A stretch of 64,000 bases of DNA from contig NZ_SPQP01000011.1 in NCBI RefSeq assembly GCF_004571075.1, forward strand, positions 1 to 64,000, written 5' to 3'. The DNA is from Blastococcus sp. TF02A-35 (GTDB taxonomy: Bacteria; Actinomycetota; Actinomycetes; Mycobacteriales; Geodermatophilaceae). Within the stretch, counting starts at the first letter, position 1. The number at the start of each line of letters is the position of its first letter. Of the stretch, positions 405 to 16,358 are shown in pieces. The position numbers and the translations under genes are program-made. The notes beneath the pieces were generated by a model. That model saw nothing but the letters and a program-made list of their open reading frames with translations. It did no database searches and had not been told where the DNA came from.

Positions 405-827
405 CTATCCGGGCCTCGGGGTGCCAGACCGCCCTTCCAAGGTCCGAATCAGCAAGGATAAGTGCTCTGGGTGAGCTAACCGCAAATACTTCAGCTCCGC
501 CGCCCCCACCCAAGCGATCGCTGAATGCTCCTCTGGTGCCGCATTCACAGGCTCCCCAGTAAACTGATCCACAAACCACGCCTCAACCACATAGGCGTCA
601 TCACGTATGGCTTGAAGAGGCCCGTCGCGCGAGATCGCGGCGTCCACGCCGATCTCTTCCCGCAGCTCCCGTCGCAGAGCGTCGCGTGAGCTTTCCCCCG
701 GCTCCACTTTTCCACCGGGAAGAGACCAGTAGTCGGGGTACCGCACCCGACCCTTGCTCCGATGGCACAGCAGCAGGCGGCCATCTCGGATGAGTACGCC
801 CGCAACCACCGTTCCCGTCCCTATCAC
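405..827 (-). CDS. NUDIX hydrolase
   Basis: A 140-residue NUDIX protein, the usual size for a stand-alone family member that hydrolyses nucleoside-diphosphate-linked substrates. The full NUDIX box is present at residues 39-61: GGKVEPGE, then the REL-REE-IGV helix, matching GX5EX7REUXEEXGU exactly, so the metal-binding glutamates are intact. It starts at a GTG overlapping the TGA of the upstream pyruvate-kinase-like gene (GTGA), so the two are translationally coupled. It is the last gene of the long minus-strand operon. The substrate is unknown. In this context it could remove a toxic nucleotide by-product or process a nucleotide-activated intermediate made by the upstream kinase and nucleotidyltransferase. 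Confidence 0.85.
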   Translation of the reverse strand: MIGTGTVVAGVLIRDGRLLLCHRSKGRVRYPDYWSLPGGKVEPGESSRDALRRELREEIGVDAAISRDGPLQAIRDDAYVVEAWFVDQFTGEPVNAAPEEHSAIAWVGAAELKYLRLAHPEHLSLLIRTLEGRSGTPRPG

Positions 828-1867
828 GAGGCCCGGAACAGAGGCAGCCGGCCCGATTCGGCGCCGTAACGTTCAATCAAGGACGACAACATGGCGACCG
901 TGCGGGTCGGATGCTTTCCCACCGTGGTCTCCGTCGAGAGCATAAGCCCATGCACGCGCTTCTCGATCAGATGCGATACGTACGCAAGTTCGGACCGATT
1001 AGGTAGCCATGTGTTGGACAAGCTGACGAGCAGTTGCGTGCCGACTATAGCCGGCACACCTTGCTTGTCGGCGGCCTTCAAGACCGATCGACATGCGTCA
1101 TAGAACTCAATTGGGCCGACATCGAGGAGGAGGTCTCCCCGACCGAGCAGGACGCCGTCCGACTCGTCAAGGATTTCCTGTATCGCGCCGATTCCGGCCG
1201 CCGTTTCCACCTTGGCGATGACCGCCGGGGGCGGCCGATTGCCGAACGAACGCGCCAGAGACTCCTTGACCTCCCGGACAGTCTTGGCGCTCTCTACGAA
1301 GGAGACAATGACACCGGTGAACGGAGCAGCGCCGAGCGTCTCCAGACCCTCTCGATCACCTGCGGTCAGGGACTCGCTGGCGTTCGACCGCCCGGACACG
1401 GTCACACCGCGCCGGCGCCCCAGCTCGCCGCTCGTTAACGGCCGCGCGATGCAGTGGTCATCCGCGACCGCCTCGACGGCAAGAGCTTCCTCGCCGTCCC
1501 CGGTAACAAGAACATCACCCACCGCCACTTCATCCAAGCCTCCACCGGAGATCCCAAGCCGCGGCGGATCGAGCCGTGGATCGGCCTCTTCCGGCGAGAA
1601 CGCGACCCGCACAGGCCGCTGCGGATCCAGGGGAAATCCATTGTCGTTGGTTAAACGCGTCTTCGACCCGGGCAGATCCAGGAGTAGGTCGAGTTTCGCG
1701 CCAAGCCCGTCGGCTTCCTTCGCGACGGACCACGCTTGGTCAGTCAGTACGTCGACACCGAACTTCGAGGCAGGAAATCTGAAGGCGTCAGCCCCCGAAT
1801 CGATAATCTGGCGCCAACTCTCGGGCGTGGAAGTGTTCGGCCCGACCGTAATAACGATTTTCGTCAC
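824..1867 (-). CDS. Pyruvate kinase-like barrel protein, degenerate active site
   Basis: About 347 residues resembling the A/B domains of pyruvate kinase without the C-terminal allosteric domain (true enzymes are about 470). It opens TKIVITVGPNTSTPES. The phosphoryl-transfer lysine region (VIAKVETAAGIGAIQEI) and metal-binding SDGVLLGRGDL are kept. The nucleotide/K+ site is not: the usual RLNFSHG reads RFPASKF, and LLDTKGPEIR reads LLDLPGSKTR. So enolate chemistry may survive while ATP handling is altered. I chose the GTG at 1867; an in-frame TTG at 1882 is the alternative. It is the penultimate gene of the cluster, coupled to the NUDIX gene. It could be a specialised aldolase/kinase-like enzyme or a divergent self-resistance copy; this is not settled. 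Confidence 0.75.
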   Translation of the reverse strand: MTKIVITVGPNTSTPESWRQIIDSGADAFRFPASKFGVDVLTDQAWSVAKEADGLGAKLDLLLDLPGSKTRLTNDNGFPLDPQRPVRVAFSPEEADPRLDPPRLGISGGGLDEVAVGDVLVTGDGEEALAVEAVADDHCIARPLTSGELGRRRGVTVSGRSNASESLTAGDREGLETLGAAPFTGVIVSFVESAKTVREVKESLARSFGNRPPPAVIAKVETAAGIGAIQEILDESDGVLLGRGDLLLDVGPIEFYDACRSVLKAADKQGVPAIVGTQLLVSLSNTWLPNRSELAYVSHLIEKRVHGLMLSTETTVGKHPTRTVAMLSSLIERYGAESGRLPLFRAS

Positions 1868-1921
1868 GAGTAAACCATCCAACTTCGCAGGACACTCCAG
1901 AACGACATGACGACTTCACGA

Positions 1922-3571
1922 CTAGTCTTGCCGCGTATACAGGGTCCCCTCCGACCAGACGTACCGAGTGCGCCCCCACTCCATGGCACTCCGAGCGTCC
2001 GGGAAGAATCCCGAGTTCTTGAGATTCGCGCTCGTATTGCAAAGCAGCGGAATCCCTGACAACGCCTCGTATGCGGCGAGCAATTCGGCTATAGCAGGGT
2101 TGCTTTCACTCGTAACCGTTTGGAGCCGAGCCGTACCATCCAGGTGCCGAATGGCTGGAACACGTTCCGCCCATTCATCTCGAACGGCATGGTCAAAGAG
2201 CATATAGGGATCTGGTGTCCCGGGATCGAAGATCCCAGACGCCCGATCCTCCAAGCAGATCGGCGCGACCGGACGGTAACCTTCGCGCTCCTTGATGTCG
2301 TTCAACACATCCTTCATTTGCGGACTCCCCGCCGGCGCCAGGATACTGCGGTTTCCGAGTGCCCGCGGGCCCAGTTCCGCCTTGCCATTCAGGAAGACAA
2401 CGGCCTCTCCCGACGCATGCAACACCTCGGCCAGGCCCCTCAACGAGCACTCCTTGCCAACCCACCCCGGCAAAGGATCACTCGGGCGCAAGGCGGGACC
2501 GGAGTAGACATTCCAGTCAAGACTTCTCCGATGACTCTGCTGCATCATAGCCACCGACGCCGTTCCAATTGCGCTTCCCGAATCATTCGGGAAAGGCGGA
2601 ACCCAGACCTCGTCGAATAGCCCGGAGTCGCGGATGGCGCTATTCCACTTAATATTTAGAGCGCACCCCCCAACGAGACAGAGATTGCGGATTCCTCCGG
2701 CCGCCTCCAGCGCGGACAGTTCCTGCAGTCCCGCCAGCAGTCGGTCCTGCAGGAACTGATGCAGTGAGGCGAGCGCGTCGGCTCCGCTCACACCATCCAG
2801 GCGAAGGTCGCGTTCTATGCCTTCGAGGATCCGGACGCCTGCATCTACTTGCAGCCGCCTGTCGTTAGTCTGCCAATCTGGCCCGATATGCTGATCGACT
2901 AGCGCATCGGTCAAGCGCGCAAGCTCAGCAATGACGTCGTCACGAGGCCTCCCAAGTGCGATATATGCCATGATCTTGCCGGCAAGCCCAAGCACGTGGG
3001 GGAATTCGATCTTACGATCGAACGGCGGAAAGTGTCGACCGACGCGGTGGTACACGTCTCCAATAAGCGGCAGGACGGCACCAAGCGTCTCTGCGCCACC
3101 CGACTCTGCGTTGATCCTGTACAGCATGGGAAACATCCAGGCATCCCAAGCGAGGACAAGTGCATCCTCGCCCCGGACCGCGAAGGGGCTCGTGCAGTAG
3201 CCCGAGGCGACATGCCCCGCGTAGTGCGTATAGCTCTGGTAAGTCAGGTCGAATACGGTGTGCGGATAACTTCCGAACAGATCGTCCGAGATAAGGCCAC
3301 GACGATAGGGGGCGAGGACTATCTCTGCCTCCTGCCCCGCCCACTGTCGCACCTTATGCGTCTTGTGCCAGCCGTCCAGTACGAACTGGTCGACATCCGC
3401 GGGCGAGTAGCCGTGCTCCTCGATCAGCTTGAAGACTATATCGAGATCCTCGATCTTCGAATAACGCTCATTGTTGTCGAGCTTCTCCATTTCGATGGAG
3501 AAGATCAGCTTGCCATCATCGATCAAAGCGACGGCACCGTCGTGTGTTGTCTTGACTCCGCAGATGATCAC
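1922..3571 (-). CDS. NodU/TobZ/CmcH-family O-carbamoyltransferase
   Basis: A 549-residue protein with the layout of NodU/CmcH/TobZ carbamoyltransferases, which convert carbamoyl phosphate and ATP to carbamoyl-adenylate and move the carbamoyl group onto a hydroxyl. The N-terminal Kae1-like domain starts MIICGVKTTHDGAV and has the metal-binding H-x3-H as HYAGH (residues 116-120). The conserved LCLVGGCALNIKWN loop lies near residue 300 and the C-terminal signature ELGPRALGNRS near 410. It starts at a GTG with a good GGGAGAA ribosome site. It sits mid-operon among flavoenzymes and kinases. It is the second carbamoyl-transfer enzyme of the cluster, beside the transcarbamoylase at 7414-8442, so the final product probably carries a carbamate or urea group. 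Confidence 0.9.
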   Translation of the reverse strand: MIICGVKTTHDGAVALIDDGKLIFSIEMEKLDNNERYSKIEDLDIVFKLIEEHGYSPADVDQFVLDGWHKTHKVRQWAGQEAEIVLAPYRRGLISDDLFGSYPHTVFDLTYQSYTHYAGHVASGYCTSPFAVRGEDALVLAWDAWMFPMLYRINAESGGAETLGAVLPLIGDVYHRVGRHFPPFDRKIEFPHVLGLAGKIMAYIALGRPRDDVIAELARLTDALVDQHIGPDWQTNDRRLQVDAGVRILEGIERDLRLDGVSGADALASLHQFLQDRLLAGLQELSALEAAGGIRNLCLVGGCALNIKWNSAIRDSGLFDEVWVPPFPNDSGSAIGTASVAMMQQSHRRSLDWNVYSGPALRPSDPLPGWVGKECSLRGLAEVLHASGEAVVFLNGKAELGPRALGNRSILAPAGSPQMKDVLNDIKEREGYRPVAPICLEDRASGIFDPGTPDPYMLFDHAVRDEWAERVPAIRHLDGTARLQTVTSESNPAIAELLAAYEALSGIPLLCNTSANLKNSGFFPDARSAMEWGRTRYVWSEGTLYTRQD

Positions 3572-3610
3572 AGCTTCTCCCAGTACAGGTTTACATTGTT
3601 GAGGAGTTGT

Positions 3611-3883
3611 TCAGGGAAGTTTCGGGTGGAACTGAATCATCAACGTTTCAACATCCTCATACGGTCGCAAGATATCGACCGTCTCAACGATGCGTTCCGG
3701 GTAACGGGACCGCACACGCACCAACGGCTGCTCGATTCCGTTCAAGCCGATGACAGTCGTGTCCCCGGTGAGGATGAAGATGAAGTCATCTCGGTAGTCA
3801 AGATGCCTGAAGAGATCCGAATAGCGCTCGATTCGATCTTTCGCATCCTCATGCGAATATCCAATGAACTCAATGGCGGGCAT
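3611..3883 (-). CDS. Small tautomerase-like protein
   Basis: A 90-residue protein starting MPAIEFIGYSHEDAKDRI. I chose the ATG at 3883 rather than an upstream in-frame TTG because a GGACGGA ribosome-site-like run precedes it, and because it puts proline at position 2, the residue that becomes the catalytic N-terminus in tautomerase-superfamily enzymes. The alternating beta/helix pattern (DDFIFILTG, then PLVRVRSRYPERIVETVDIL) fits that fold. I could not match it to a named subfamily, so function is tentative: possibly keto-enol isomerisation of an intermediate. It lies 39 bases downstream of the CYTH gene stop-side junction, and 39 bases ahead of the carbamoyltransferase gene, in the same operon. 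Confidence 0.6.
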   Translation of the reverse strand: MPAIEFIGYSHEDAKDRIERYSDLFRHLDYRDDFIFILTGDTTVIGLNGIEQPLVRVRSRYPERIVETVDILRPYEDVETLMIQFHPKLP

Positions 3884-3925
3884 GATTCCGTCCAATCTGC
3901 TGGGGTTGGCCTTAGCCGACTGCGC

Positions 3926-4399
3926 TTAAGACCAGGATCCGAATGGCGAAGAGCTCAGATGGGCATTGTAGAAGCGGTCATCGTCGGTGACCTCGGCTCC
4001 GATCCACTCCGGCCAAGTCTCTGGCCACGCTGCTGCGACATCGAGCTCGAGCTCCGCGAGCACGAGTCCTGCGTTTTCGTCTTCGTACTCATCTACGACG
4101 ATTGTCCACACACCGAAGGGAACGAAGTGACGAACCTTCGCGACCCGCCGGCCGCCGCAAAGCCGGTCGATCATGGTGCGGGCTTCATCGGCATCGATTT
4201 GGTACTCGTACTCTTCGCGAGTGTGTCCTTGGCGGCGGCCTTTCACCGTCAGGAACCCGTGTTCCCCATCGAAGCGGACCCGGACACTGCAGTCCGCTCC
4301 GACCGAGAGGTAGCCCTGGCATAAGGAGAGTCTGCGCGTGACACCAGACCGCCACGAATCTCCCTGAACAAGAAACTTCCGCTCAACCTCTTTGGCCAC
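3926..4399 (-). CDS. CYTH-domain triphosphate tunnel protein
   Basis: A 157-residue single-domain CYTH protein. The defining ExExK motif is at the N-terminus as EVERK (residues 4-8), followed by paired basic and acidic strands (VRVRFDGEHGFLTVKGRR, REEYEYQID, VVDEYEDENAGLVLAELEL) that line the tunnel. Stand-alone bacterial CYTH proteins are usually inorganic triphosphatases or nucleotide triphosphate hydrolases. It starts at a GTG overlapping the stop of the P-loop kinase by one base (TAGTG), so the two are coupled. In this cluster it could act on a triphosphate side-product or phosphorylated intermediate; the substrate is not visible from sequence. Confidence 0.85.
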   Translation of the reverse strand: MAKEVERKFLVQGDSWRSGVTRRLSLCQGYLSVGADCSVRVRFDGEHGFLTVKGRRQGHTREEYEYQIDADEARTMIDRLCGGRRVAKVRHFVPFGVWTIVVDEYEDENAGLVLAELELDVAAAWPETWPEWIGAEVTDDDRFYNAHLSSSPFGSWS

Positions 4400-5109
4400 T
4401 AAGCCATCCCTTCCACAGCAGTTGCGGATGATGATGTCGTCTGCAGGGGCAGGCGGTTCTCGAGCCGTTCGAGGACATGCTGCACGATTTGCTCAGTCGA
4501 TAGCTCATCCGTTTCGATAATCTCCCAGTCTGGATCCTGCCCCACCTCGCCCAGCGCGAGCGCCTCCATTGCGGGAAAGGCATCCAGGTTGGCACGGAAG
4601 TAGCGATTTAGCTGGTGTGTTTCCCCGCCCGACCGGGCTTGCGCCCTGCGTGCACGCTCCACCGGTCCACACGTTAGGAATACTTGGACTGCAAAGCGCG
4701 TCGCTCCGTGCTCACGCCACCCCCTCGATAAGAAGTTCTCTCGCGGCGTAAAGAACTCGTTGTGACAGAACTGCGTGAGCCAGTTCCGGTCCTGGATATG
4801 GATATAGCCCTCGGGGATCCCAAGTCGCCGCGTCTCCGCCGCGTCAGAAATCATCTCAGCGGAGCGCAAAGCGTTAAAGGCGTACACGAAGTCTGGGTCC
4901 GGGAACCTGTCGGGGATGTCTGGACTCAGACTTGCGAAGGCTGCCTGGTGGAGCGCCTCCGTGTGAATTGATGGGGTAACAAAGCAGCGACTCATGCGGT
5001 GTGCGACGTTGCGACGAGCGCACTCGGCCGCTAACCCATGGGCAGCGCTTGTTTTACCTGCATAGTTCAATCCTTCCAGTAATACCCCCGGAATGATTGC
5101 GCCGCTCAT
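4399..5109 (-). CDS. P-loop kinase related to thymidylate/nucleoside kinases
   Basis: A 236-residue kinase. The Walker A loop GLNYAGKTS (residues 13-21) is preceded by a hydrophobic strand, as in thymidylate kinase-like proteins. A DRNWLTQFCH segment resembles the D-R substrate-site motif, and FLTCGPVERARRAQARSGG resembles the lid helix. The start is set by an AAGGGAG ribosome site six bases before the ATG at 5109; an in-frame ATG at 5133 lacks one. A 149-base gap separates it from the APH-type gene, the largest gap inside the operon. It is coupled to the CYTH gene. It may phosphorylate a nucleotide-like or small-molecule intermediate; the acceptor is not predictable from sequence. Confidence 0.75.
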   Translation of the reverse strand: MSGAIIPGVLLEGLNYAGKTSAAHGLAAECARRNVAHRMSRCFVTPSIHTEALHQAAFASLSPDIPDRFPDPDFVYAFNALRSAEMISDAAETRRLGIPEGYIHIQDRNWLTQFCHNEFFTPRENFLSRGWREHGATRFAVQVFLTCGPVERARRAQARSGGETHQLNRYFRANLDAFPAMEALALGEVGQDPDWEIIETDELSTEQIVQHVLERLENRLPLQTTSSSATAVEGMA

Positions 5110-5258
5110 GCCCGACTCCCTTGCCCTAGACATTCAACCCAGACAGCGCCGCACCATCCGAGTGTGCCGTGGCGCGCATGGGACGGGCGCCCGGTCAATC
5201 CACCCGCGCCGACCGTCCTAGCCTGAGGGTTGCGGGTTAGCGTCAGATGGCGAAGCAC

Positions 5259-6224
5259 CTATCTACCGCCTTCCGACCAGTGAGCCGCGATGCCAGCCTC
5301 CAGAAATGCTCTGCTCAAGCGCGCGACAGCAGCATCGAGCTCTTCACCGGGCAAACGATCGAACACAAACGGCACCCCGAGGGGATAGTCCTCCGCTTGT
5401 TGTACGGCGCGCCGCCGGCAACCGGTAATCAAGCTGAGCGTGTCCAATCCATAACGGAGGAGCACCAGGCGCGACATGCCGCGGAATCGAGTCATTTCAT
5501 CAGCCGTCGCGGTGCGTCCCAGGTAATCTTCAAGGAAGTTGCCTGCCGCGTCGCTCGTCAACTGCAGCGCTCCCGCCGCGGTGGCAACGTCAAAGAAGAC
5601 ATCTCCCATTCCCACATGATCGAAGTCAATCAACCAAACACGGTCACGACTGACCAACATGTTGGTCGGATTGAGATCGTTATGACAAAGAGCCCTTATA
5701 CCTCGCCCTCGGGAGAGCTTCCCCCGCAAGTCGTCGTAAGCACGCATTCCGATCTGGTAGCGTCGCAGTTCCGGACTGGCGCCGACCTCACCCCGGATTC
5801 TGTCGATCCCTACGCGCCGCTTGCTCTTGTGCAGAGCGAGTGCCTCATCGGGCGCGACAGCATGAAGCTGGCGCAAGACGCGGGCAGCTTCGGCGACAAT
5901 GGAGCGGTTCGGCCGTACGGCCGACTGAGCGTCGATGTGCGCCATCAGCAGTTCCCCCGCCGCTGTATCCGCCGCGATCACCGCGGGCCCGAGTTGTTCG
6001 CGGCCCAGTCGCGCCGCCACTTCGAACTCTGCACGCACGTCAGACGCGGTAACCCTTGAGAGGTTGATCTTTCGGAGCACCGCTGCCGGACGACCCGATG
6101 CTCGACGAACCAGGAAGGTGCGCGCCCATTGTGTCGGAGTGTCCGGGTAGGGCCGGAACTCGCACTCACGCAACCATGGCGCTTCGCGCCACAGCGACTG
6201 GCCTAGCGCCTCGAACTTACGCAT
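5259..6224 (-). CDS. Aminoglycoside phosphotransferase (APH)-family small-molecule kinase
   Basis: A 321-residue protein of the APH/choline-kinase fold, about the usual length. The catalytic loop is HNDLNPTNML (His181, Asp183, Asn188) and the metal-binding segment LIDFDHVGMG (Asp200, Asp202). The ATP-binding lysine region AAVLRKINLSR lies near residue 50. Such enzymes phosphorylate hydroxyls on sugars, amino-alcohols or antibiotics. The ATG overlaps the TGA of the upstream flavoenzyme (TGATG), so they are coupled. Within a biosynthetic operon the role could be a true biosynthetic phosphorylation or self-protection by product phosphorylation. I cannot separate the two from sequence. Confidence 0.85.
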   Translation of the reverse strand: MRKFEALGQSLWREAPWLRECEFRPYPDTPTQWARTFLVRRASGRPAAVLRKINLSRVTASDVRAEFEVAARLGREQLGPAVIAADTAAGELLMAHIDAQSAVRPNRSIVAEAARVLRQLHAVAPDEALALHKSKRRVGIDRIRGEVGASPELRRYQIGMRAYDDLRGKLSRGRGIRALCHNDLNPTNMLVSRDRVWLIDFDHVGMGDVFFDVATAAGALQLTSDAAGNFLEDYLGRTATADEMTRFRGMSRLVLLRYGLDTLSLITGCRRRAVQQAEDYPLGVPFVFDRLPGEELDAAVARLSRAFLEAGIAAHWSEGGR

Positions 6225-7417
6225 CAGATGAAGGCCGTGTCTGGTTCCTGCCCAGACAGCAATTCGCCCACCCAGTCGATCATCTGGTGTTGAGCGACGA
6301 CGTGCTGGCAGGCTGTGACGATGTCTCTGAGGAGGCGGTCCAGTGGGGTTCGGCTGCTATAGACCGCAGCGCCACCCACGAGGTCGTAGACCTCCTCGAT
6401 GACCTGCCGCGCGGAACGAAAAGCGTTGTAGCGAGACAACGCGGCGCGAGCGCGAGCAGCGACGCCGAGCTTCTCACCTTTCAACAGGTGCTCCCACTGC
6501 TCGTCCAACGACCCATACACCAGGGCCCGCGCCGCAGACAGCTGCAACTCGCACTCCGCGACCACCCGCCGGGCTCGTGGCGTTCCGGCCCTTGCCGACG
6601 CGTTCGCCGTGCCACCCTTTCCCTCGGCCAGCGAATAGGCGACGTCAAGCGCGGCCCGGCCGGCCCCCAGGGCGACGCCTGCCATTTTTCGGACTAGCGC
6701 ATCGGAACGCCTCGTGAGGATGCCCGGGTGTACTGGTCGCTCAAAGGAGATCACGTGTCCCGCCGGTACAAACAAGTCGCGCGCCACGTAGTCACGACTG
6801 CCCGTTCCCGCAAGCCCAGTCGAATACCACGAGTCAATGAACTCAAACTGTTCAGGCTTCGCGAGCAGGACCTTCCAGGTACCCTTTTCAGCAGGCACTC
6901 CGCCAGCAGACTCAGCGACTCGGAACCCTGCAGCCATCACATCCGCATGATTGCTACCGCTAGCGAACCGCCAATCGCCGTTCACGAGATATCCGCCGTC
7001 GACTGGCTCGCCGCGGCCCAAGGGCGCCACCTGACCGGCCGTGATGAGGTCTGGCGAACGAAAGATCGCGCGGGCCGCCTCTGGGGAAAGATAGCGGGCG
7101 TAGATGCCAGAGTCCATGCCAATCATGACGCACCAGCCCACCGAGACGTCTGCGCGCGACAGCGCCTCGATAATCCGCGTCTGTTCGGCAGACGTGAGAT
7201 CGGCGCCGCCCCATTCCGCCGGTACTGCACAACTGAAGACGCCGGTCTCCCGAAGCTGAGCGACCAGCGCACTGGGAAGATGCCGCTCAGACTCGGCCTG
7301 TGCCCCGGACTCCCGGATGCTCCCGTGGAGCGCTTGCGCTCGACTTAGAATGGTTGTAAAGGTCCGGCCGGGGACACCGACGAGGCTGCTCGGCTCAACC
7401 ACGCTGGGTTCAGTCAC
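6224..7417 (-). CDS. Acyl-CoA-dehydrogenase-fold flavin enzyme
   Basis: A 397-residue protein of the acyl-CoA dehydrogenase fold. Features are the N-terminal helical domain (FSCAVPAEWGGADLTSAEQTR), the central beta domain (GYLVNGDWRFASGSNHADV, matching the GxKxWxTxG-type segment of FMN-dependent oxygenases) and the C-terminal four-helix domain (YDLVGGAAVYSSRTPLDR, RDIVTACQH). The GSNHAD form and the type-2 C-terminal domain favour a flavin monooxygenase (N- or C-hydroxylase) over a CoA-ester dehydrogenase. I placed the start at the GTG that overlaps the upstream stop (GTGA); a longer frame would intrude 66 bases into the transcarbamoylase gene. It is a likely oxidative tailoring step. Confidence 0.8.
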   Translation of the reverse strand: MTEPSVVEPSSLVGVPGRTFTTILSRAQALHGSIRESGAQAESERHLPSALVAQLRETGVFSCAVPAEWGGADLTSAEQTRIIEALSRADVSVGWCVMIGMDSGIYARYLSPEAARAIFRSPDLITAGQVAPLGRGEPVDGGYLVNGDWRFASGSNHADVMAAGFRVAESAGGVPAEKGTWKVLLAKPEQFEFIDSWYSTGLAGTGSRDYVARDLFVPAGHVISFERPVHPGILTRRSDALVRKMAGVALGAGRAALDVAYSLAEGKGGTANASARAGTPRARRVVAECELQLSAARALVYGSLDEQWEHLLKGEKLGVAARARAALSRYNAFRSARQVIEEVYDLVGGAAVYSSRTPLDRLLRDIVTACQHVVAQHQMIDWVGELLSGQEPDTAFI

Positions 7418-8442
7418 TCGCCTGACACCATCCCTGCCATCAGCGCCATCCGGCAATGTACTGATGCACGCACCTGCTGCCAATACATACTGTTCGGCAT
7501 GCTGTCTGTGTCCTCGTGGAGCTCATCAGAGCGCGGGCCAGGATGAAAGACCAGGGTCCTCGACTTGGTCGACTCGATTTTCTCGCGAGTGACCCGGTAC
7601 TTCTCATGCGTGGCCAGTGCGTTGCCCCTCAGGGTTCTCGGGTCCGCCTCGAGCGACGGGATGCGTGCGGGAAGCATCTCGAGTGCGTCGGCTTCACACA
7701 GGACGTCTCGTACATCAGCGCAGTACTCGATCCTAACCGGGAACCGTGCCAGCTCCGTTTCGACATCTTCCGGCAGTCGTGCACCTCTCGGACCACCATT
7801 GTCACTATTGTCCGTGACACTATCCGGCGTCATGAAGAGGAGGCGCTCGACTCCCAGGCGGGCCAATATTGCGGCCAGCGAGCGCAGCACCCGTGTCCCC
7901 GGATCGCCGATCAAGGCGACCGTTCTTCCGCTCAGGCCGCGGAGCGTTCTGTCCATCAGCCACGCATCTGTAATCGCTTGCGTTGGATGCTCATTGCTCC
8001 CGTCGCCGCCATTGATTATCGGCACAGTGGAGACTTCGGCGGCCCGGGCCGCCGCGCCGGCAACGAAGTGGCGCATGACAATGATGTCCGAGTAGGCGGC
8101 CAGCACCTGTGTCGCGTCCTCAATAGACTCACCGGTGTAGTGAACCGATCTGGTGCTGGCGATGTCAGAAAAGCCCACGACGCGTCCCCCGAGGCGATGC
8201 GCAGCAGTCTCGAACCCGAGGCGAGTGCGGGTGCTCGGTTGGAAGAAGGCAACGCCAAGCACCTTTCCCGCCATGCAGTCCTGGATTGCCGCGTGTCCTG
8301 ACGGCTGTTGCACCTCGTCGATGCGGTCGAAGATGCCGACAATGTCGCCGTACTCAAGCTGCCCAACCGAAGTCAGATGCGTGAAGGAGAACGGCCTAGT
8401 CAGTCCTGAGCATGGGCTAGTTGCCGAGAGTGGCATGGTCAT
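7414..8442 (-). CDS. Aspartate carbamoyltransferase-like transcarbamoylase with altered acceptor site
   Basis: A 342-residue aspartate/ornithine transcarbamoylase-family protein. The carbamoyl-phosphate site is intact: FFQPSTRTRLGFE (STRT at 70-73), VMRH (Arg124), HPTQ (152-155) and Arg184 in GDPGTRVLRS. Residues that hold aspartate in genuine PyrB are changed: the mobile-loop lysine before GE is Thr103 (HYTGES instead of KKGET), the R-x-Q segment reads M-L-P-A-R (256-260), and HPLPR reads HPGPR (300-304). So the acceptor is probably not aspartate. The start has a strong AGGAAGG ribosome site. No other pyrimidine gene is nearby, and it is coupled by GTGA to the flavoenzyme. A resistant target copy is possible but fits the missing lysine poorly. 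Confidence 0.85.
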   Translation of the reverse strand: MTMPLSATSPCSGLTRPFSFTHLTSVGQLEYGDIVGIFDRIDEVQQPSGHAAIQDCMAGKVLGVAFFQPSTRTRLGFETAAHRLGGRVVGFSDIASTRSVHYTGESIEDATQVLAAYSDIIVMRHFVAGAAARAAEVSTVPIINGGDGSNEHPTQAITDAWLMDRTLRGLSGRTVALIGDPGTRVLRSLAAILARLGVERLLFMTPDSVTDNSDNGGPRGARLPEDVETELARFPVRIEYCADVRDVLCEADALEMLPARIPSLEADPRTLRGNALATHEKYRVTREKIESTKSRTLVFHPGPRSDELHEDTDSMPNSMYWQQVRASVHCRMALMAGMVSGE

Positions 8443-8510
8443 AGGTACCTTCCTGGCGCGATAAGGCCACGAGGATCGAACAGATCTTTCAGACCCCGCA
8501 ACAACCGTTC

Positions 8511-9803
8511 CTACACCGGGTCGGCACGGATAGACGCTGCCAGGTGCATGTGATCAATATCGAGGCGGTACGGGCTGAGGCGGCGGAGCCCGAAACCTTC
8601 ATGCAGTTGATCTAGAAGGCGACGCACGGTTGCCGCTGTCGCCGTCGACCGTTCGAATCGGAGGGCCACCACAAGGTCGACGTAGCCGCTGGGCAACACA
8701 TTGATTGTGTGACCGATCGTGATGCCGTCTGACTCCTCAGCGGCGCCCAAGACTTCTAGTGCGGGCCCAAGCCCTTCCGGCGAGAAAGGGACCATCGGGG
8801 TGACGAACGCCCACCCGAAACGGCTGTGGGTTTCCACGTCCCGGGCGGGGCATCCGAACACGGCATCGATCATCGCATCGTTTCCACGAGGATCGCCGGC
8901 ATATGAACGCACTAATGCCGCTTCGGGCACCGTCATCTCGTCTGTATCCGACGGCAGCACAAGCGCCTCACTGAATAGGCAGGCATCGCGGGCGCCCTCA
9001 AGAATCGTTCTCGTTTTTACGTCGGCCACTTCTGCGGTGCCCTCAATACAGACGTACATCGTGTAGGCCGCCGAGCGCATGCCGCCATAGACTTCGATCG
9101 CGGCCTCATTATAGATTTTTATGACACCAGCGGTGGTGCCTTGCCGCTGGTAGCGCGCGATCCAACGGACGACGCGGGGCAGGCGATCAGCATCGAAGCG
9201 GAGACGCAGACAGTACATGCGCTCAGGTACGGGGATAAGCCCTACCACCGCAGCCGTCACCACACCCAGGTTTCCTTGTGGGAAGAGCTCCAGAAGGGAC
9301 GGACCAACACCATGCCGGTAGTGAGCCGTTTGGTCACCCCTTGGCCAGAAGCCCGCGCGGCAGACGTCCCCGTCAGATAGCACGACTTCTAAGCCGAGAA
9401 CGTCGTCCGTCCGCTGCCGGCGCACGCCAACGCCGCGGTCCAAAGCATTCCCAAGAACACTGGTGTGCTGCGAAGACGCGGTCACGTTGAGCAGGAAGTC
9501 GCTGCCCGTCAGGGCCTCCGCCAACTGGCCCTGAGAGACACCGGGCTCGATAACCGCCCATCCTTGATCCAGATCGATGCGCCGCACCTTGTTCATTTTG
9601 TGGAGCCTTAGAAGGGCTTGGCCACTTTGCGCTGGGGCGTCCGTCCCGAACCCCCAGTTGAACCCGGTGCTTACCGGGTAGACGGGGACCTTGCGGGCTT
9701 CTGCGTCGCGCAGCGCGTCTCGCACGTCTTCAAGGCATTCCGGCTCGACGACGGAGACCACGCCGCGAGCGGAGAAGGCACCGGGACGGGCATCGCGTTC
9801 CAT
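8511..9803 (-). CDS. FAD-linked oxidoreductase of the VAO/PCMH type
   Basis: About 430 residues. The N-terminal half is a PCMH-type FAD-binding domain: VVEPECLEDVRDALRDAEARK, the loop YPVSTGFNWGFG, AVIEPGVSQGQLAEAL and NALDRGVGVRRQRTDD. The C-terminal half (FGWAFVTPMVPFSPEG, GYVDLVVALRF) is the alpha/beta substrate domain seen in flavin oxidases and dehydrogenases of the GlcD/vanillyl-alcohol oxidase group. I prefer the ATG at 9803, with a GGTGAG run upstream, over a GTG at 9815. I could not identify the usual covalent-flavin histidine with confidence. It lies between the exporter and transcarbamoylase genes and probably performs a two-electron oxidation in the pathway. Confidence 0.8.
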   Translation of the reverse strand: MERDARPGAFSARGVVSVVEPECLEDVRDALRDAEARKVPVYPVSTGFNWGFGTDAPAQSGQALLRLHKMNKVRRIDLDQGWAVIEPGVSQGQLAEALTGSDFLLNVTASSQHTSVLGNALDRGVGVRRQRTDDVLGLEVVLSDGDVCRAGFWPRGDQTAHYRHGVGPSLLELFPQGNLGVVTAAVVGLIPVPERMYCLRLRFDADRLPRVVRWIARYQRQGTTAGVIKIYNEAAIEVYGGMRSAAYTMYVCIEGTAEVADVKTRTILEGARDACLFSEALVLPSDTDEMTVPEAALVRSYAGDPRGNDAMIDAVFGCPARDVETHSRFGWAFVTPMVPFSPEGLGPALEVLGAAEESDGITIGHTINVLPSGYVDLVVALRFERSTATAATVRRLLDQLHEGFGLRRLSPYRLDIDHMHLAASIRADPV

Positions 9804-9884
9804 ACGTGGTCTCACCTTCGAGCGTATCTAGAGGAGTACATCCGCACAGTGGCCAGGGCCATCGACTCAGCAGGCGGTCGACAC

Positions 9885-11132
9885 CTACCTCTCCGGGAAG
9901 CTGCGGCGGGCTAGGATGACGCCGAGGCCGACCAATACCTGCCCGGTGGCGGCAACGATTAGGACAGTCCTCAGCGATGTCGCTTCTGCGAGCCACCCGC
10001 CCATTAGCGCGCCCACCAACATAGGTCCCCGGCTGATGACGCGCATGGAGGCGAATACTCGACCGATCATCGGCTTTGGAATGGCATGCTGCCGCATGGT
10101 GATGCCCAGAACCAGGTAAACCGTGATCGCCAACGACGCCACCAGTTGCGCCGTGAAGAGGAAGACGACGGGTACCCAGGGCCCTTCGGGACTCAAAGCC
10201 AGAATAAGTTCACCAGCTCCAGCGAGTGCCAGCGCCGAGGAGAGAGCGATTCTGACACCGAACCGCGTCTGAGCCCTGTTGGCGACCGAGGCGCCGACAA
10301 CGCCACCAACAGCTCCAAGGCCCAAGGCAATGCCGTAGACCGTCGGCGACACCTCTAGCGTTCGAAGAACGAACAGGACGGCTATCGAGCCCGCAGCGCC
10401 AGCGAAGAAGTTGAAGCCGCCGCTGCCGATTGCAAGGAGCCGCACCGCAGGTATACGAGTGACGCCAGCGAAGCCCTCAGCCACTTGACGCACGTAGGCC
10501 CCGGCGCCCGTGGAGGCGCGGTCGGGCACGGCCTCAGCGACCTTGATAAGGAGGAGCGTCCAGGCAGAGAAGAGATATGAAGCGACGTCCAGCAACAGCG
10601 CCAGAGGCGCGGAGACCAGTTGGAGCAGGAGCCCGCCCAGTCCAGGGCCCGCAACTTGCGAAACCGACCGCGATGCCTCAAGGCGTCCATTCGCCTTGGT
10701 TAGTGCATCGGAAGGGACCAGGGCCGGCACCCAAGCGACATAGCCGACGTCAGCGACGACCGAACACAATCCCAACGCGAGTGCGGCGAGGATTAATGTG
10801 CCGATGCCGAGCAGGTCCGCTGCCCACAAGGCAACAACCATGGCAAGCAGTGCTGCGCGTGCGAAATCTGTGGCGAGCAGGAGGCGCCGTTTTGAGCCGC
10901 GGTCGACGAGGGGGCCAGCGAATAGCGGCGCCGCAAGGTTCGGCACGATCCCAGCGGCCACCAGCAGGCTCATCTCGACCGGACTGGCGCCGAGGGTGGC
11001 TGCCGCGATAACTGGAAGCAGGAAGGTCGTGATCTCTGACCCGATGAGGGATGCACTCGCACCCGCCCAGTACCGACGAAAGTCATTGCCGAGCCCAGCG
11101 GAAGATACCGATACCACGCCGCGTCCCGTCAA
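9885..11132 (-). CDS. MFS exporter (MFS_3/enterobactin-exporter-like)
   Basis: About 415 residues with roughly 12 hydrophobic segments. The N-terminus DFRRYWAGASASLIGSEI and the cytoplasmic loop LVDRGSKRRLLLATDFARA match the MFS_3 group of exporters, which often export natural products. The first codon appears to be a TTG overlapping the nucleotidyltransferase stop (TTGA); a GTG at 11117 is the alternative. It is embedded in the operon between the nucleotidyltransferase and FAD-oxidoreductase genes, so export of, or resistance to, the cluster product is the natural reading. No ABC exporter or peptidase-fused exporter, which many peptide clusters use, is present. Confidence 0.9.
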   Translation of the reverse strand: MTGRGVVSVSSAGLGNDFRRYWAGASASLIGSEITTFLLPVIAAATLGASPVEMSLLVAAGIVPNLAAPLFAGPLVDRGSKRRLLLATDFARAALLAMVVALWAADLLGIGTLILAALALGLCSVVADVGYVAWVPALVPSDALTKANGRLEASRSVSQVAGPGLGGLLLQLVSAPLALLLDVASYLFSAWTLLLIKVAEAVPDRASTGAGAYVRQVAEGFAGVTRIPAVRLLAIGSGGFNFFAGAAGSIAVLFVLRTLEVSPTVYGIALGLGAVGGVVGASVANRAQTRFGVRIALSSALALAGAGELILALSPEGPWVPVVFLFTAQLVASLAITVYLVLGITMRQHAIPKPMIGRVFASMRVISRGPMLVGALMGGWLAEATSLRTVLIVAATGQVLVGLGVILARRSFPER

Positions 11133-11953
11133 CTCGCCACGCGGTTAGCAAGGAAGTTGTCTTGAACGCTCTGCACGATCTCCGCGGCAGTACGCAGCCG
11201 ACGCTTCGAGGTCGCCAAGACGTCGACGGGTGCGGCGGACCGGTCCAAGCCCACCTCGAGGTATCTCTCGGCGATCACCGTCTCGCCCAACGCACGTAGT
11301 TTTGCGAACCGCCACTTCGGCTTGGGATTCGTATGCCCTTTACTGGCACAAAACGCATCGACGGCGGCGCCTAGCGTCCACTGAGACGTCAGCATTGCGG
11401 TGCCGTAGTCGCCCTCAGCGATCGCTCCAACTGCGTCTTCGGACAGTCCGAAATAGTCCACCAAGAAGCGATTCGCAACCAGGCGGGCCAGCCGGTCACT
11501 AGGGACCGCCGCCTGGATCAGCTGGAAGTCCTCGGGACGTTGAATGGGCACACCGATGCGAATGCGGTGAGCCATGTCGATGAAGCTAGTGGGGACCGCG
11601 ACAGCCGCCGCCACGTCTTCGAGGTCACATGACCTAATGGCCTCGGTCACCTGCTGAACCTTCGTTCGCGACCAAGTTTCGATATCGAGGCGCGTCTTGT
11701 CGACGTACTGCAGATTCATGGAGAAGTCGCCCATGTCATAGCCCGCATTAGGCTTAGCTTGCGGCTCAGATGACGGGCGGTCGATGATGAAGACGTCCAG
11801 GTCTGAGGATTCGTTGCCGATGCCCTCTACTAAGGACCCGCTGATAAATACGGTACATGTGGGGTCGATGCCCTCGGCAGCCCGCTCCCCGATACGGACA
11901 AGGTCGTCCAGTGCCGAGTTTGAAACTGAAGCAGATCCGCGATGGTACGCCAT
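11129..11953 (-). CDS. Nucleotidyltransferase-domain protein
   Basis: A 274-residue protein with an N-terminal polymerase-beta-like nucleotidyltransferase core: FISGSLVEG followed by SSDLDVFIID (Gly39-Ser40, Asp51, Asp53), the GS...DxD metal site of antibiotic adenylyltransferases and related enzymes. The C-terminal half is helical with no clear motif. The start is decided by an AGGAAGG ribosome site six bases before the ATG at 11953; a longer in-frame ATG at 11989 overlapping the upstream stop has no such site. It could transfer a nucleotide to a small molecule or to the peptide, as activation or protection. The acceptor cannot be read from sequence. Confidence 0.75.
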   Translation of the reverse strand: MAYHRGSASVSNSALDDLVRIGERAAEGIDPTCTVFISGSLVEGIGNESSDLDVFIIDRPSSEPQAKPNAGYDMGDFSMNLQYVDKTRLDIETWSRTKVQQVTEAIRSCDLEDVAAAVAVPTSFIDMAHRIRIGVPIQRPEDFQLIQAAVPSDRLARLVANRFLVDYFGLSEDAVGAIAEGDYGTAMLTSQWTLGAAVDAFCASKGHTNPKPKWRFAKLRALGETVIAERYLEVGLDRSAAPVDVLATSKRRLRTAAEIVQSVQDNFLANRVAS

Positions 11954-11985
11954 TGATACCTTCCTACAAGTCGACTGCCGGCCCG

Positions 11986-12711
11986 TCATGCAACTGGGAC
12001 GGGCTGCCTTTTAGGGATGGAGGGTCGGAGCAGCGTCTGAACGACGTTTGGAAGGTTGTAGACGGTATGGGCTATCGCTACCGCTAGCCAACTACCGGTG
12101 AGGTACATGACCGCCGCGTAAACCGTTCCCAATACGGCGTGCACCACTACATCGCGAGCGTCCCATGTGCTTCTGGCGACCGCATGCAACACGTGTTCAC
12201 CGACGAAGAGCAGGACGCTCAGCGGAATAACCACCCAGTCGAGCAGGGGCGTAAACGCAACGAAGACGACCCAGCGGTACAAGTACTCCTGAGCAGCGCC
12301 CCCGGAGAAGAAGTAGATGAGGTCTCGGGCGCGATCCATCGAACCTAGCGGGCCGAGCATCTCAACCATTCGGGAACTGAGGCCCAGGCGGATGTTAGCC
12401 CAGCCGAAAGCCATGGCCAGGACCGTCGGTCCAATGGCTGCCAGCAAAGCGAGACCTGATACATGCAGTTCAGGAATCCCGAACGTGAGCAGCGGCGCGA
12501 AGAATACGAGACTGCGCGTCAACCGACGGATCAGGCTGCCAAAAGGAAGGCGGTCGGCCCAGGGGAGACTAGACCGCGAACTCACCGCCACGAGGCCGAA
12601 GGCAGCTATCGCGACAATCGCTGGATAACTCCGAAGGAGGACGATCGTGAGGGCGAGCGCAACGCTGACTCCCCCCGTGAGCCACGCCCGCCGGGATTGA
12701 CGACGGCTCAC
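11986..12711 (-). CDS. CPBP-family intramembrane protease homologue
   Basis: A 241-residue membrane protein with about six to eight hydrophobic segments and the CPBP (CAAX/bacteriocin-processing) motifs. Motif 1 reads AAQEYLYR where the family normally has EE-x3-R, so the first glutamate is Gln. Motif 2 is FVGEHVLHA and motif 3 is AIAHTVYNL, supplying the histidines and asparagine. Such proteins cleave peptides within or near the membrane, and some mature or give immunity to bacteriocins. It is coupled by GTGA to the PqqD-like gene and is the only protease candidate in the cluster, so leader removal or immunity is a reasonable guess. The Gln substitution leaves catalysis uncertain. Confidence 0.8.
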   Translation of the reverse strand: MSRRQSRRAWLTGGVSVALALTIVLLRSYPAIVAIAAFGLVAVSSRSSLPWADRLPFGSLIRRLTRSLVFFAPLLTFGIPELHVSGLALLAAIGPTVLAMAFGWANIRLGLSSRMVEMLGPLGSMDRARDLIYFFSGGAAQEYLYRWVVFVAFTPLLDWVVIPLSVLLFVGEHVLHAVARSTWDARDVVVHAVLGTVYAAVMYLTGSWLAVAIAHTVYNLPNVVQTLLRPSIPKRQPVPVA

Positions 12712-12959
12712 TCCACCAGGCCCATTCTCGCGAGCTGGGCAACCAGTTCGCGAGCGTCTGCCTTTGCGTCGTCAAGGCTGACGTCATACTCAGCGGCAAT
12801 GACCGTTGCAATGTCTTCAACAGTCTTAGTGCCGTCACAGTGGCGCCAGATCAGCCCCGCCACTGCGTCCAATTCGTAGGCCTCGCCGCGGCGCACAAGC
12901 AGGAGCGTATCGCCTTGTGCGCTCACACGGGCATCAAAGGCCTTTTCTGGCTTTTCCAC
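12708..12959 (-). CDS. PqqD-like RiPP recognition element protein
   Basis: An 83-residue stand-alone PqqD-family protein. The pattern is typical: LLLVRRGEAYELDAVAGLIWRHCDGTKTVEDIATVIAAEY, followed by the C-terminal helix VAQLARMGLVE. This is a winged helix-turn-helix that binds leader peptides and delivers them to modifying enzymes. It begins at a GTG with a GGAG ribosome site. It lies 75 bases downstream of the 21-residue peptide gene, with a strong hairpin between, and is coupled to the CPBP gene. Its presence is the main reason to call the cluster peptide-linked. Lasso-peptide systems use the same domain, but no lasso cyclase or B2 protease occurs in this window. Confidence 0.9.
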   Translation of the reverse strand: MEKPEKAFDARVSAQGDTLLLVRRGEAYELDAVAGLIWRHCDGTKTVEDIATVIAAEYDVSLDDAKADARELVAQLARMGLVE

Positions 12960-12995
12960 TTCTTTCTCCAGTCGCTATCAAACTTCAACGATGCA

Positions 12996-13029
12996 CGGGC
13001 GGGGGCGGATTAGCACCCGCCCCCACCCG
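12996..13029 (-). terminator. GC-rich attenuator-like hairpin after the precursor gene
   Basis: A 13-bp stem with one G-U pair and an 8-base loop (arms 12996-13008 and 13017-13029) lies just after the stop of the 21-residue peptide gene and before the PqqD gene. There is no T-tract, so it is likely a partial terminator or 3' stabiliser that leaves the peptide message more abundant than the enzyme messages. This is a common arrangement in peptide-precursor operons. Confidence 0.7.
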
Positions 13030-13034
13030 CACCA

Positions 13035-13100
13035 TCAGGCCACGTTCATGGCCTTACCGATGCTCACCTTGCGAACGGTGGGCTTCTTGTACTCCTTCAT
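13035..13100 (-). CDS. Putative 21-residue RiPP precursor peptide
   Basis: A short ORF: ATG at 13100, TGA at 13035-13037, preceded by a strong GAGAGGGGG ribosome site. The peptide begins MKEYKKPTVRK and ends KAMNVA. Residues Tyr4-x-x-Pro7, then Val9, Val12 and Gly15, match the YxxP leader motif that PqqD-type recognition elements bind in lasso precursors. Only about six residues follow Gly15, with no Cys, Ser or Thr among them and one Asn, so a conventional lanthipeptide or thiazole core is excluded. It is the first gene after the promoter and is separated from pqqD by a hairpin. It could be a true precursor with a tiny core, or a scaffold peptide on which a small molecule is built. Assignment rests on context and motif. 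Confidence 0.75.
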   Translation of the reverse strand: MKEYKKPTVRKVSIGKAMNVA

Positions 13101-13165
13101 GGTTTTCCCCCTCTCAACATGTAGGGCTTGTGCGGCTCGTCGGCCGCGGAACGCCGACACCTAGG

Positions 13166-13188
13166 GACCGCCGGGCGAACCGGCGGTC
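13166..13188 (-). promoter_or_regulatory. Leader hairpin between promoter and precursor gene
   Basis: A perfect 9-bp inverted repeat (GACCGCCGG / CCGGCGGTC, 5-base loop) lies in the roughly 100-base untranslated leader expected from the promoter at 13206-13235. It could stabilise the RNA or bind a regulator. There is no T-tract, so it is not an obvious terminator. Confidence 0.5.
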
Positions 13189-13205
13189 GAAGTGTTGGCG
13201 GTTAC

Positions 13206-13235
13206 GTTCTATCCCCTTACCGGATCGAGGGTCAA
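13206..13235 (-). promoter_or_regulatory. Sigma70-type promoter of the peptide cluster
   Basis: On the minus strand TTGACC (13230-13235) is followed after 18 bases by TAGAAC (13206-13211), close to the vegetative -35/-10 consensus. Transcription would start near 13200, about 100 bases before the peptide ATG. It is the only strong promoter-like sequence I find ahead of the operon. Confidence 0.6.
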
Positions 13236-13298
13236 GCACGTCGACGCGGAAGTTGGAGCGGTTGCCATAGGTTCTGCGCAGAGCCCTATCAAGCGCGA

Positions 13299-15802: not shown

Positions 15803-16060
15803 GCCCTGGACCTGGCGCTCGGCCGGCTCGGTGCCCATGCAGTAGCGGTGCGGTCCTCGGCGACCGGTGAAGACTTCAGACAGACGTCCGCGGCGGGGCA
15901 GTACGAGACGACGCTCGCTGTGCACGGACTGCCGGCCGTCGCCGAAGCGGTCCGCGCCTGCTGGGCGTCGCTGCTCTCTCCCCGGGCGACTGCCTACCGG
16001 TCCCGCACCGCCCCGCCGACGAGTTGGCCATGGCGGTCATCGTCCAGCGGCGCCCAAGTA
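15803..16060 (+). pseudogene. PEP-synthase/PPDK N-terminal domain fragment
   Basis: Joined directly to the clpP fragment but in another frame: LGRLGAHAVAVRSSATGEDF, then AAGQYETTLAV and AVRACWASLLSPRATAYR. After a further frame change comes ELAMAVIVQRR. This matches the ATP-binding (PPDK_N) domain of phosphoenolpyruvate synthase or rifampin phosphotransferase-type enzymes (VRSSAT-ED, CWASLW, AVxVQR). It has no start and internal frame disruption, and fades after about 16060. It is unrelated to the intact ppdK at 53.4-56.1 kb by position and lacks that gene's start region. From about 16060 to 16358 I see no identifiable gene. Confidence 0.65.
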
Positions 16061-16358
16061 GCGTCGGAGCTGAGAACGCACCGTCGTCCCCGACGCCGAC
16101 GATCGGATCACGGGCATGGGCGAGGTGGCCTGCCCGCAGAGCTTCCCGCAGCTACGCGGCAAAGGCGGCGCCCGGCGATCCCGAGGCCCCCGCCGACAGC
16201 AACGGCGGCACTGGCCCCTGACCGCTCACTTCGTGCACAGCACAAGGCTGGCACACGGCTTGCCCTCGGGTGCGCACGGCTCAGACGCAGCAGAAGGGAC
16301 TTCGGCACCGCGGCTCAGCACACCGTTGCGGCTCCCCGTCTCGGCAGGCGGATCGGCG

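Follow-up and report, generated by a model that had tools for sequence, protein, structure and literature searches.

A cluster of 15 closely packed genes, lying between positions 405 and 13100 on the minus strand of a 64,000-nucleotide stretch of Blastococcus sp. TF02A-35, is well supported by sequence comparison as a member of a broad, apparently undescribed family of clusters led by a short peptide, and such clusters probably make products in which a short ribosomal peptide carries a small phosphorylated molecule. The stretch analysed, hereafter the window, comprises positions 1–64,000 and starts at base 1 of its contig (C3); all cluster genes given below are on its minus strand. An earlier note on this DNA had counted fourteen minus-strand genes, of which the strand and the close packing hold and the number becomes 15 with the peptide included, and had proposed a new class of ribosomally synthesised and post-translationally modified peptide (RiPP) or a pathway using the peptide as a scaffold. 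That proposal now gains support, from genomics only, in that the peptide is conserved in 29 of 31 loci with the accompanying enzymes and that a search with the peptide alone reached another cluster. Across the family the constant part is a YxxP-containing peptide with its ribosome site and usually a hairpin, a RiPP recognition element (RRE) resembling those of lasso peptide B1 proteins, and a nucleotidyltransferase (NTase) of the ANT-like type with an intact active site, often accompanied by an exporter.

A short peptide conserved beside an NTase and an RRE

The window peptide (13035–13100) is a precursor-like sequence of 21 residues, MKEYKKPTVRKVSIGKAMNVA, preceded by a Shine-Dalgarno-like site, GAGAGGGGG, at 13107–13115 and followed by a PqqD-type RRE gene (12708–12959); the earlier note had placed both a 21-residue peptide and such an RRE at the head of the cluster, and both are there. 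We searched for counterparts of the peptide by way of the NTase (P0012). Eleven plasmid records matched, eight of which were examined (L008–L015; loci are given by our L numbers), and all five with a PqqD gene in the fetched stretch (L008, L009, L011, L012, L014) also carry a short peptide. The first counterparts were those of Parageobacillus, MKKTYSTPKVTEVKVNTAVIINV, and Corynebacterium, MKKAYRKPEATKAEFGAIMAWPG. Four further loci (L016–L019) came from a related-locus search. In one genus, which we infer to be Streptomyces, 50 of 343 genomes matched the NTase model at E<=1e-8, and 26 regions were fetched around the stronger matches. The relatives are mostly from Streptomyces, with others from Nonomuraea, Corynebacterium and Parageobacillus, and a locus of S. 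virginiae has the same gene order as the window, peptide-PqqD-CPBP-NTase-MFS.

By profile search, separate NTase and PqqD genes occur together in 31 loci. A peptide not conserved where the enzymes are had been set beforehand as the outcome that would count against the proposal; what was found is a YxxP peptide of 21–23 residues with a Shine-Dalgarno site in 29 of the 31, the other two being L077, at a contig edge, and L078. The 29 include near copies (L008/L018/L019, which have one peptide sequence, and L065–L067), and L056, the same cluster as L017, was excluded from the counts. No peptide was found in the five NTase loci that lack PqqD (L010, L013, L015, L071 and L079, the last two from genomes already counted, those of L059 and L063). 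Among the other 195 relatives' genomes the NTase had only weak matches, in three, and the NTase model found, besides the window, six weaker matches in 396 genomes of the phylum, in frames of 746–1322 residues, one of which (L021) was checked and has no PqqD match within its 1.5 kb flanks. A search of the other 393 genomes with the aspartate-carbamoyltransferase-like (ATCase-like) protein P0009 gave nothing at E<=1e-60, and P0006 as a query had no match in the genome contigs or the plasmids.

For a chance test we defined a peptide reading frame as 20–24 codons with the pattern M.{1,4}Y..P and a Shine-Dalgarno-like site. Thirty-two such frames occur in the 29 loci (569 kb, the loci having been selected for having one), compared to one in 1.7 Mb of order-2 Markov sequence and none in 248 kb of real DNA, of which 124 kb is clean (window 16–64 kb and four dnaX regions of relatives) and the other 124 kb consists of seven NTase loci where no peptide had earlier been found. 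Judged by these counts, a chance origin of the window peptide is unlikely. Searches that start from the peptide lead in the same direction: tblastn with two family queries against 72,556 plasmid records gave three records, each with an NTase/PqqD cluster, namely Streptomyces NBC_00853 (E 2), S. scopuliridis (a self match) and S. europaeiscabiei (E 2e-3). The last cluster had been present earlier as an NTase match and was first examined after the peptide-first search. Its peptide, MRKYTKPTAKTISQGTVLRDNA, is absent from the gene table and lies directly ahead of asnB, diiron oxygenase, MFS and pqqD genes, with the NTase 0.5 kb off on the opposite strand. The more diverged plasmid members L008, L011 and L012 were missed by the peptide-first searches.

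The peptide lengths of 21–23 residues follow from choosing the later start; an upstream start would give 24–26 in L008, L009, L011, L017, L018 and L019. Conservation covers the first 18 residues, and the last four evolve rapidly. In a set of 23 distinct 22-mers, variation beyond Met1 is lowest at positions 4, 6, 7 and 10 (Tyr, Lys, Pro and Lys in 20–21 of the 23) and highest at position 20. The same picture emerges from 13 pairs of related peptide genes, whose codons show 39 silent and 33 replacing changes in residues 2–18 against 5 and 26 in residues 19–22 (Fisher P 4e-4, the pairs not being independent). A link between the last residue and the tailoring set was tried and rejected: it is positive at residue 22 but at most other residues too, and relatedness is not separable from it. 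For instance, L072 and L076 have payload genes in common and peptides ending in Ala and Lys, respectively. Tandem peptide genes are found in two loci, three in L061 and two in L072.

Directly 3′ of the window peptide stop lies a strong hairpin (12993–13032), a probable attenuator; the 70 bases past the stop fold at -43.4 kcal/mol (z -5.9), and none of 200 shuffles is as stable. Over the family, the 60 bases 3′ of the peptides have a median of -33.1 kcal/mol; in the same loci the stretches 3′ of 383 other genes have a median of -19.2 (P 9e-7 with all 29 loci, 6e-7 with the 24 left without near copies). Folding is strong in 23 of the 29 loci and weak, above -20 kcal/mol in 60 nucleotides, in the remaining six (L008, L012, L018, L019, L061, L072).

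The peptide position is empty in the gene tables, themselves incomplete, of five plasmid records (L009, L011, L012, L014, L106), and genes missing in this way are easily overlooked. We recognised no description of a peptide/NTase/PqqD family by title and abstract in the open-licence PMC literature, and one may exist elsewhere. With its very short precursor the family would add to those associated with RiPPs, and the trio of peptide, NTase and PqqD offers a handle for finding clusters whose payloads are unrelated, phosphonates and nucleotide-like molecules among them.

Core proteins and the nearest known systems

The PqqD-type protein (PF05402, 2.8e-17) is modelled as an RRE with a pLDDT of 92.7. 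Among solved structures, lasso B1 proteins with leader peptide (5v1u, 5v1v, 6jx3) come closest to it, followed by PqqD, and template-modelling (TM) scores of 0.84 to 5v1u (TbiB1) and 0.86 to 6jx3 place it with the RREs of lasso B1 type. Binding of W/Y/LxxP motifs has been described for certain RRE groups (PMC12710340). These likenesses could suggest a decayed lasso cluster, the peptide being a lasso leader whose core was lost, as both the YxxP motif and the B1-like RRE would be expected of it. We consider this very improbable, since the length of 21–23 residues is constant throughout 29 loci, including one from Bacillota, with the first half conserved, and decay would not keep length; moreover the window has no B2 peptidase domain by Pfam or NCBIfam.

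The NTase (11129–11989), the core family gene, retains the ANT-type catalytic motif, GS..SDxD, and the third acidic residue. The best Foldseek matches of its model (pLDDT 82) are 3c18, ANT(4′) enzymes and LinB, at TM scores of only 0.4–0.5. The triad of SDxD and third acidic residue is intact in every separate NTase aligned from the 31 PqqD-bearing loci and changed in the copies of L071 and L079. In two related clusters the NTase and RRE are fused (L080, 9290–10486; L081, 9679–10902); no peptide of the 21–23-residue YxxP type was found in these loci, and both contain a reading frame of 46 amino acids ending AHSEWAGGVVW, perhaps another precursor family. The NTase relatives without PqqD in L010, L013 and L015 lie in plasmid regions with pyrimidine, phosphonate or alanyl-tRNA synthetase genes.

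As the nearest solved NTase folds include the ANT and LinB resistance enzymes, and as related NTases exist with neither PqqD nor peptide (L010, L013, L015), one may ask whether the NTase, the APH-type kinase and the exporter serve for self-resistance or activation in the pathway of an ordinary small-molecule antibiotic, with the peptide and RRE forming a separate, perhaps regulatory, module. Such a division is improbable, given that NTase and PqqD remain paired across changing tailoring sets and that NTase-RRE fusions occur.

The CPBP/Rce1-type intramembrane protease (11986–12711; PF02517, 1.4e-8) has residues E142, R146, H173, H215 and N219 invariant in an alignment of four, and the MFS exporter (9885–11132; PF07690, 2.5e-24) has homologues in other family loci.

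With an encoded precursor beside an RRE and candidate modifying enzymes, the cluster has what is generally expected of a RiPP locus. The earlier note saw no lasso, lanthipeptide, YcaO or radical-SAM enzyme, and Pfam and NCBIfam scans of the window products agree, giving no lasso B2, lasso cyclase, YcaO, radical SAM, LanB/LanM or ThiF domain; in these scans the 94-amino-acid protein had no match and the P-loop protein a weak one only. The nearest systems are lasso peptides, microcin C, RiPPs with nitrile synthetases of the asparagine-synthetase-like (AS-like) type, and pyrroloquinoline quinone (PQQ), and in the window each misses at least one defining feature. Pearlins and 3-thiaglutamate rely on a LanB-like peptide aminoacyl-tRNA ligase, for which the same scans of the window gave no match. 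PQQ is characterised by the radical SAM enzyme PqqE and a Glu/Tyr pair in a precursor about as long as the family peptide; the window has the PqqD-type RRE, but no radical SAM enzyme and no Tyr in the second half of its peptide.

Lasso systems resemble the family in the RRE fold, the YxxP motif and, in most members, the AS-like enzyme. Tailoring kinases and NTases are found in paeninodin and pseudomycoidin, and the NTase-like protein of the latter acts at the precursor C-terminus (PMC9266682). In contrast, the window lacks a B2 transglutaminase-like peptidase domain and an AS-like cyclase (Pfam/NCBIfam), and there is no core long enough to thread, the whole peptide, with the start as chosen, being 21–23 residues in 29 loci. 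Microcin C is alike in its very short peptide of near-constant length, strong ribosome site, RRE and possible nucleotide-like payload at the C-terminus (PMC6495379). It differs in that the window has no ThiF adenylyltransferase of the MccB kind, a separate RRE and ANT-like NTase, and kinases of its own, and the C-terminal residue is Asn there and Ala in the window. Nucleotidyltransferases are also mentioned for daptide clusters (PMC10036551).

Nitrilobacillins and other AS-like RiPPs resemble those members that have an AS-like (AsnB) gene beside the precursor, unlike the window, which has none. Among 28 gene-called peptide loci (Pfam checked only on L058 members, PF00733 and PF11583) an AS-like gene occurs in 23, directly 3′ of the peptide and on the same strand in 20 of these, and an AurF-like diiron oxygenase gene in 17. 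About 300 uncharacterised AS-like RiPP candidates are mentioned in PMC13060819, and some of our loci could be among them. In the fetched DNA, CPBP occurs without an AS-like gene in the window and in the S. virginiae, Streptosporangiaceae NEAU-GS5, Parageobacillus and Corynebacterium loci; L008 and L018 have both.

Payload genes, kinases and a possible coupling route

Tailoring genes vary widely between clusters. In the window the genes between the exporter and the left end begin with an FAD oxidase of the vanillyl-alcohol-oxidase/p-cresol methylhydroxylase type (8511–9815; PF01565, 7.1e-24; best PDB sequence match 1dii, 1.3e-28), the ATCase-like enzyme (7414–8442; TIGR00670 at 210 bits, under the cut-off of 237) and a flavoenzyme of acyl-CoA-dehydrogenase fold (6224–7483; closest NCBIfam model HsaA, far under its cut-off), whose start is probably further in. 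These are followed by an APH-type kinase (5259–6224; PF01636, 2.8e-20), a P-loop kinase-like protein (4399–5133; weak AAA_18 only, E 0.014), a CYTH-domain protein (3926–4399; PF01928, 2.8e-10), a 94-amino-acid protein of unknown family (3611–3895; no Pfam or NCBIfam match), an O-carbamoyltransferase of NodU/TobZ type (1922–3571; PF02543, 3.9e-66; PF16861, 3.9e-46; TobZ among its PDB sequence matches), a pyruvate-kinase-like barrel (824–1882; PF00224, 3.6e-36), whose alignments to whole pyruvate kinases stop ahead of their C-terminal domain, and a NUDIX hydrolase (405–827; PF00293, 2.6e-22). Every gene that the earlier note listed (two carbamoyl-transfer enzymes, two flavoenzymes, NTase, CYTH, NUDIX, CPBP and MFS) is present on the minus strand; its two kinases stand, and the number of kinase-type genes rises to three with the pyruvate-kinase-like one included.

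At E<=1e-6 the other loci contain nothing that matches the carbamoyltransferases or the CYTH, acyl-CoA-dehydrogenase-like and 94-amino-acid proteins, and only a single short match to the FAD oxidase and another to the NUDIX protein. Homologues of the APH, P-loop and pyruvate-kinase-like proteins form a contiguous block of L058 (Streptomyces group), at 39, 33 and 46% identity. Payload genes elsewhere touch nucleotide or phosphonate metabolism, which we count for a coupling of phosphorylated payloads to the peptide. L064 is a phosphonate-type cluster with phosphonopyruvate decarboxylase, phosphoenolpyruvate mutase, TauD, a class III aminotransferase, pantoate ligase and a thymidylate-kinase-like (TMK) protein. 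L072 encodes orotidylate decarboxylase and BtpA/SgcQ (scanned in that locus), L017 a ribonucleotide-reductase-like protein, and L009 and L065 nucleoside-diphosphate (NDP) kinase (NDK) domains; a large M20-peptidase-type protein is found in both L072 and L076. As separate observations, L068 has most gene families in common with L064, and in the Corynebacterium locus L012, where the peptide ends AWPG, a tryptophanyl-tRNA synthetase gene (6871–7887) adjoins the cluster, a possible self-resistance gene and hint at the target.

Kinases are concentrated near the NTase. In 21 genomes, with related clusters counted together, 12 of 21 extra TMK-like matches lie within 15 kb of it (0.08 expected), as do 11 of 18 extra NDK-like matches (0.07 expected); narrowing the distance to 10 kb leaves 12 and 5. 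Extra here means beyond the strongest, housekeeping-like copy (for TMK there is none in G976), and three of the 39 extra matches are under the family cut-off, one of them near the NTase. Those near the NTase are spread over 16 of the 21 genomes. For PfkB as a control, reading the matches listed (the strongest of 346) gave none within 15 kb and one just outside.

With a kinase relay, an NTase and a peptide with its RRE side by side, the simplest reading is that a phosphorylated payload is coupled to the peptide. We tentatively favour, at somewhat short of an even chance, a route predicted from gene content in which a small molecule is raised to a triphosphate like a nucleoside triphosphate (NTP), and the NTase then attaches it to the peptide held by the RRE. 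Tailoring enzymes (in the window the two flavoenzymes, the ATCase-like enzyme and the NodU/TobZ-like carbamoyltransferase) would make the small molecule, which would then be phosphorylated stepwise (by the APH, P-loop and pyruvate-kinase-like proteins in the window, by TMK-like and NDK-like proteins elsewhere). The RRE would bind the YxxP half of the peptide, and the NTase would move the phosphoryl-payload onto the variable C-terminal end, releasing pyrophosphate. The CPBP protease would trim the leader and the MFS protein export the product. CYTH and NUDIX families act on phosphate anhydrides, and the two such proteins of the window may remove excess triphosphate. In AsnB-bearing relatives the C-terminal carboxylate might first be converted by the AS-like enzyme and the AurF-type diiron oxygenase, that is, amidated and perhaps N-oxygenated. 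A precedent for an NTase-like protein at a RiPP C-terminus is PsmN of pseudomycoidin, where the group seen is a hexose and nucleotidyl transfer is not excluded (PMC9266682).

Several points weigh against this route. None of the last eight residues of the window peptide is Ser, Thr or Tyr, which would leave the C-terminus or a Lys or Asn side chain as the point of attachment. ANT-type NTases are known to modify small-molecule hydroxyls, so the acceptor may not be the peptide, and the TM scores to these enzymes are only 0.4–0.5. The fusions in L080 and L081 carry Asn-x-Asn for the catalytic Asp-x-Asp, and L010, L013 and L015 retain an intact triad with neither PqqD nor peptide, so triad and peptide do not go hand in hand; L078 has NTase and PqqD and no peptide was found there. 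CPBP occurs in only nine of the 29 peptide loci and leader removal is thus not generally explained. The pyruvate-kinase-like protein may be no NDP kinase, the kinase enrichment pools related clusters, and its PfkB control includes housekeeping copies. Alternatively, the NTase may act on a small-molecule acceptor, and the peptide may serve as a carrier or as the source from which a small product is made.

The last possibility has precedents in PQQ and 3-thiaglutamate, where the product is excised from a peptide. C-terminal residues of the RRE-held peptide would be built on or modified, NTase and kinases would act on an intermediate, and a small amino-acid-derived molecule would be cut out. A near-constant short length with high variability only in the last 3–4 residues would fit, as would the AsnB-like gene directly 3′ of the peptide in 20 of the 23 loci having it, the M20-peptidase-type proteins of L072 and L076, and the finding that AS-like enzymes amidate or nitrilate RiPP C-termini (PMC13060819). 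We nevertheless hold excision to be rather unlikely, as it does not by itself explain the TMK- and NDK-like enrichment or the phosphonate and orotidylate-decarboxylase genes.

Returning to coupling, in its boldest form the clusters would make their own NTP analogues, even a phosphonate "triphosphate", and a free-standing ANT-like NTase would ligate these to an RRE-held 22-mer, one tagging machine serving many unrelated payloads across Actinomycetota and at least one Bacillota plasmid; this we regard as possible, if doubtful. Were coupling true, a single tagging step would link ribosomal peptides with antimetabolite chemistry.

Composition, edges and neighbours

The lower GC content that the earlier note saw relative to the flanks is borne out, at 0.56–0.64 per kb over 1–14 kb versus 0.65–0.76 past 14 kb (about 61% versus about 71%). 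Window bases 1–120 are present at four places in the genome and the window starts at base 1 of the contig; the assembly therefore breaks off within a repeat at the left end, and the minus strand of this repeat, by eye, resembles what we take to be the start of an IS3-type transposase. The cluster may extend past this edge, its left limit not being demonstrated as a natural end.

On the right a second dnaX (13656–15338, minus strand) adjoins the cluster, its C-terminal part having lower GC and being poorly alike. The genome's other dnaX (contig C75) is syntenic with relatives and the window copy is not, in the stretches compared; the second copy could be a self-resistance gene or a sign of island insertion. 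Beside it, an open reading frame on the plus strand (15848–16744) has a 54-residue match to the ATP-binding domain of pyruvate phosphate dikinase (PPDK).

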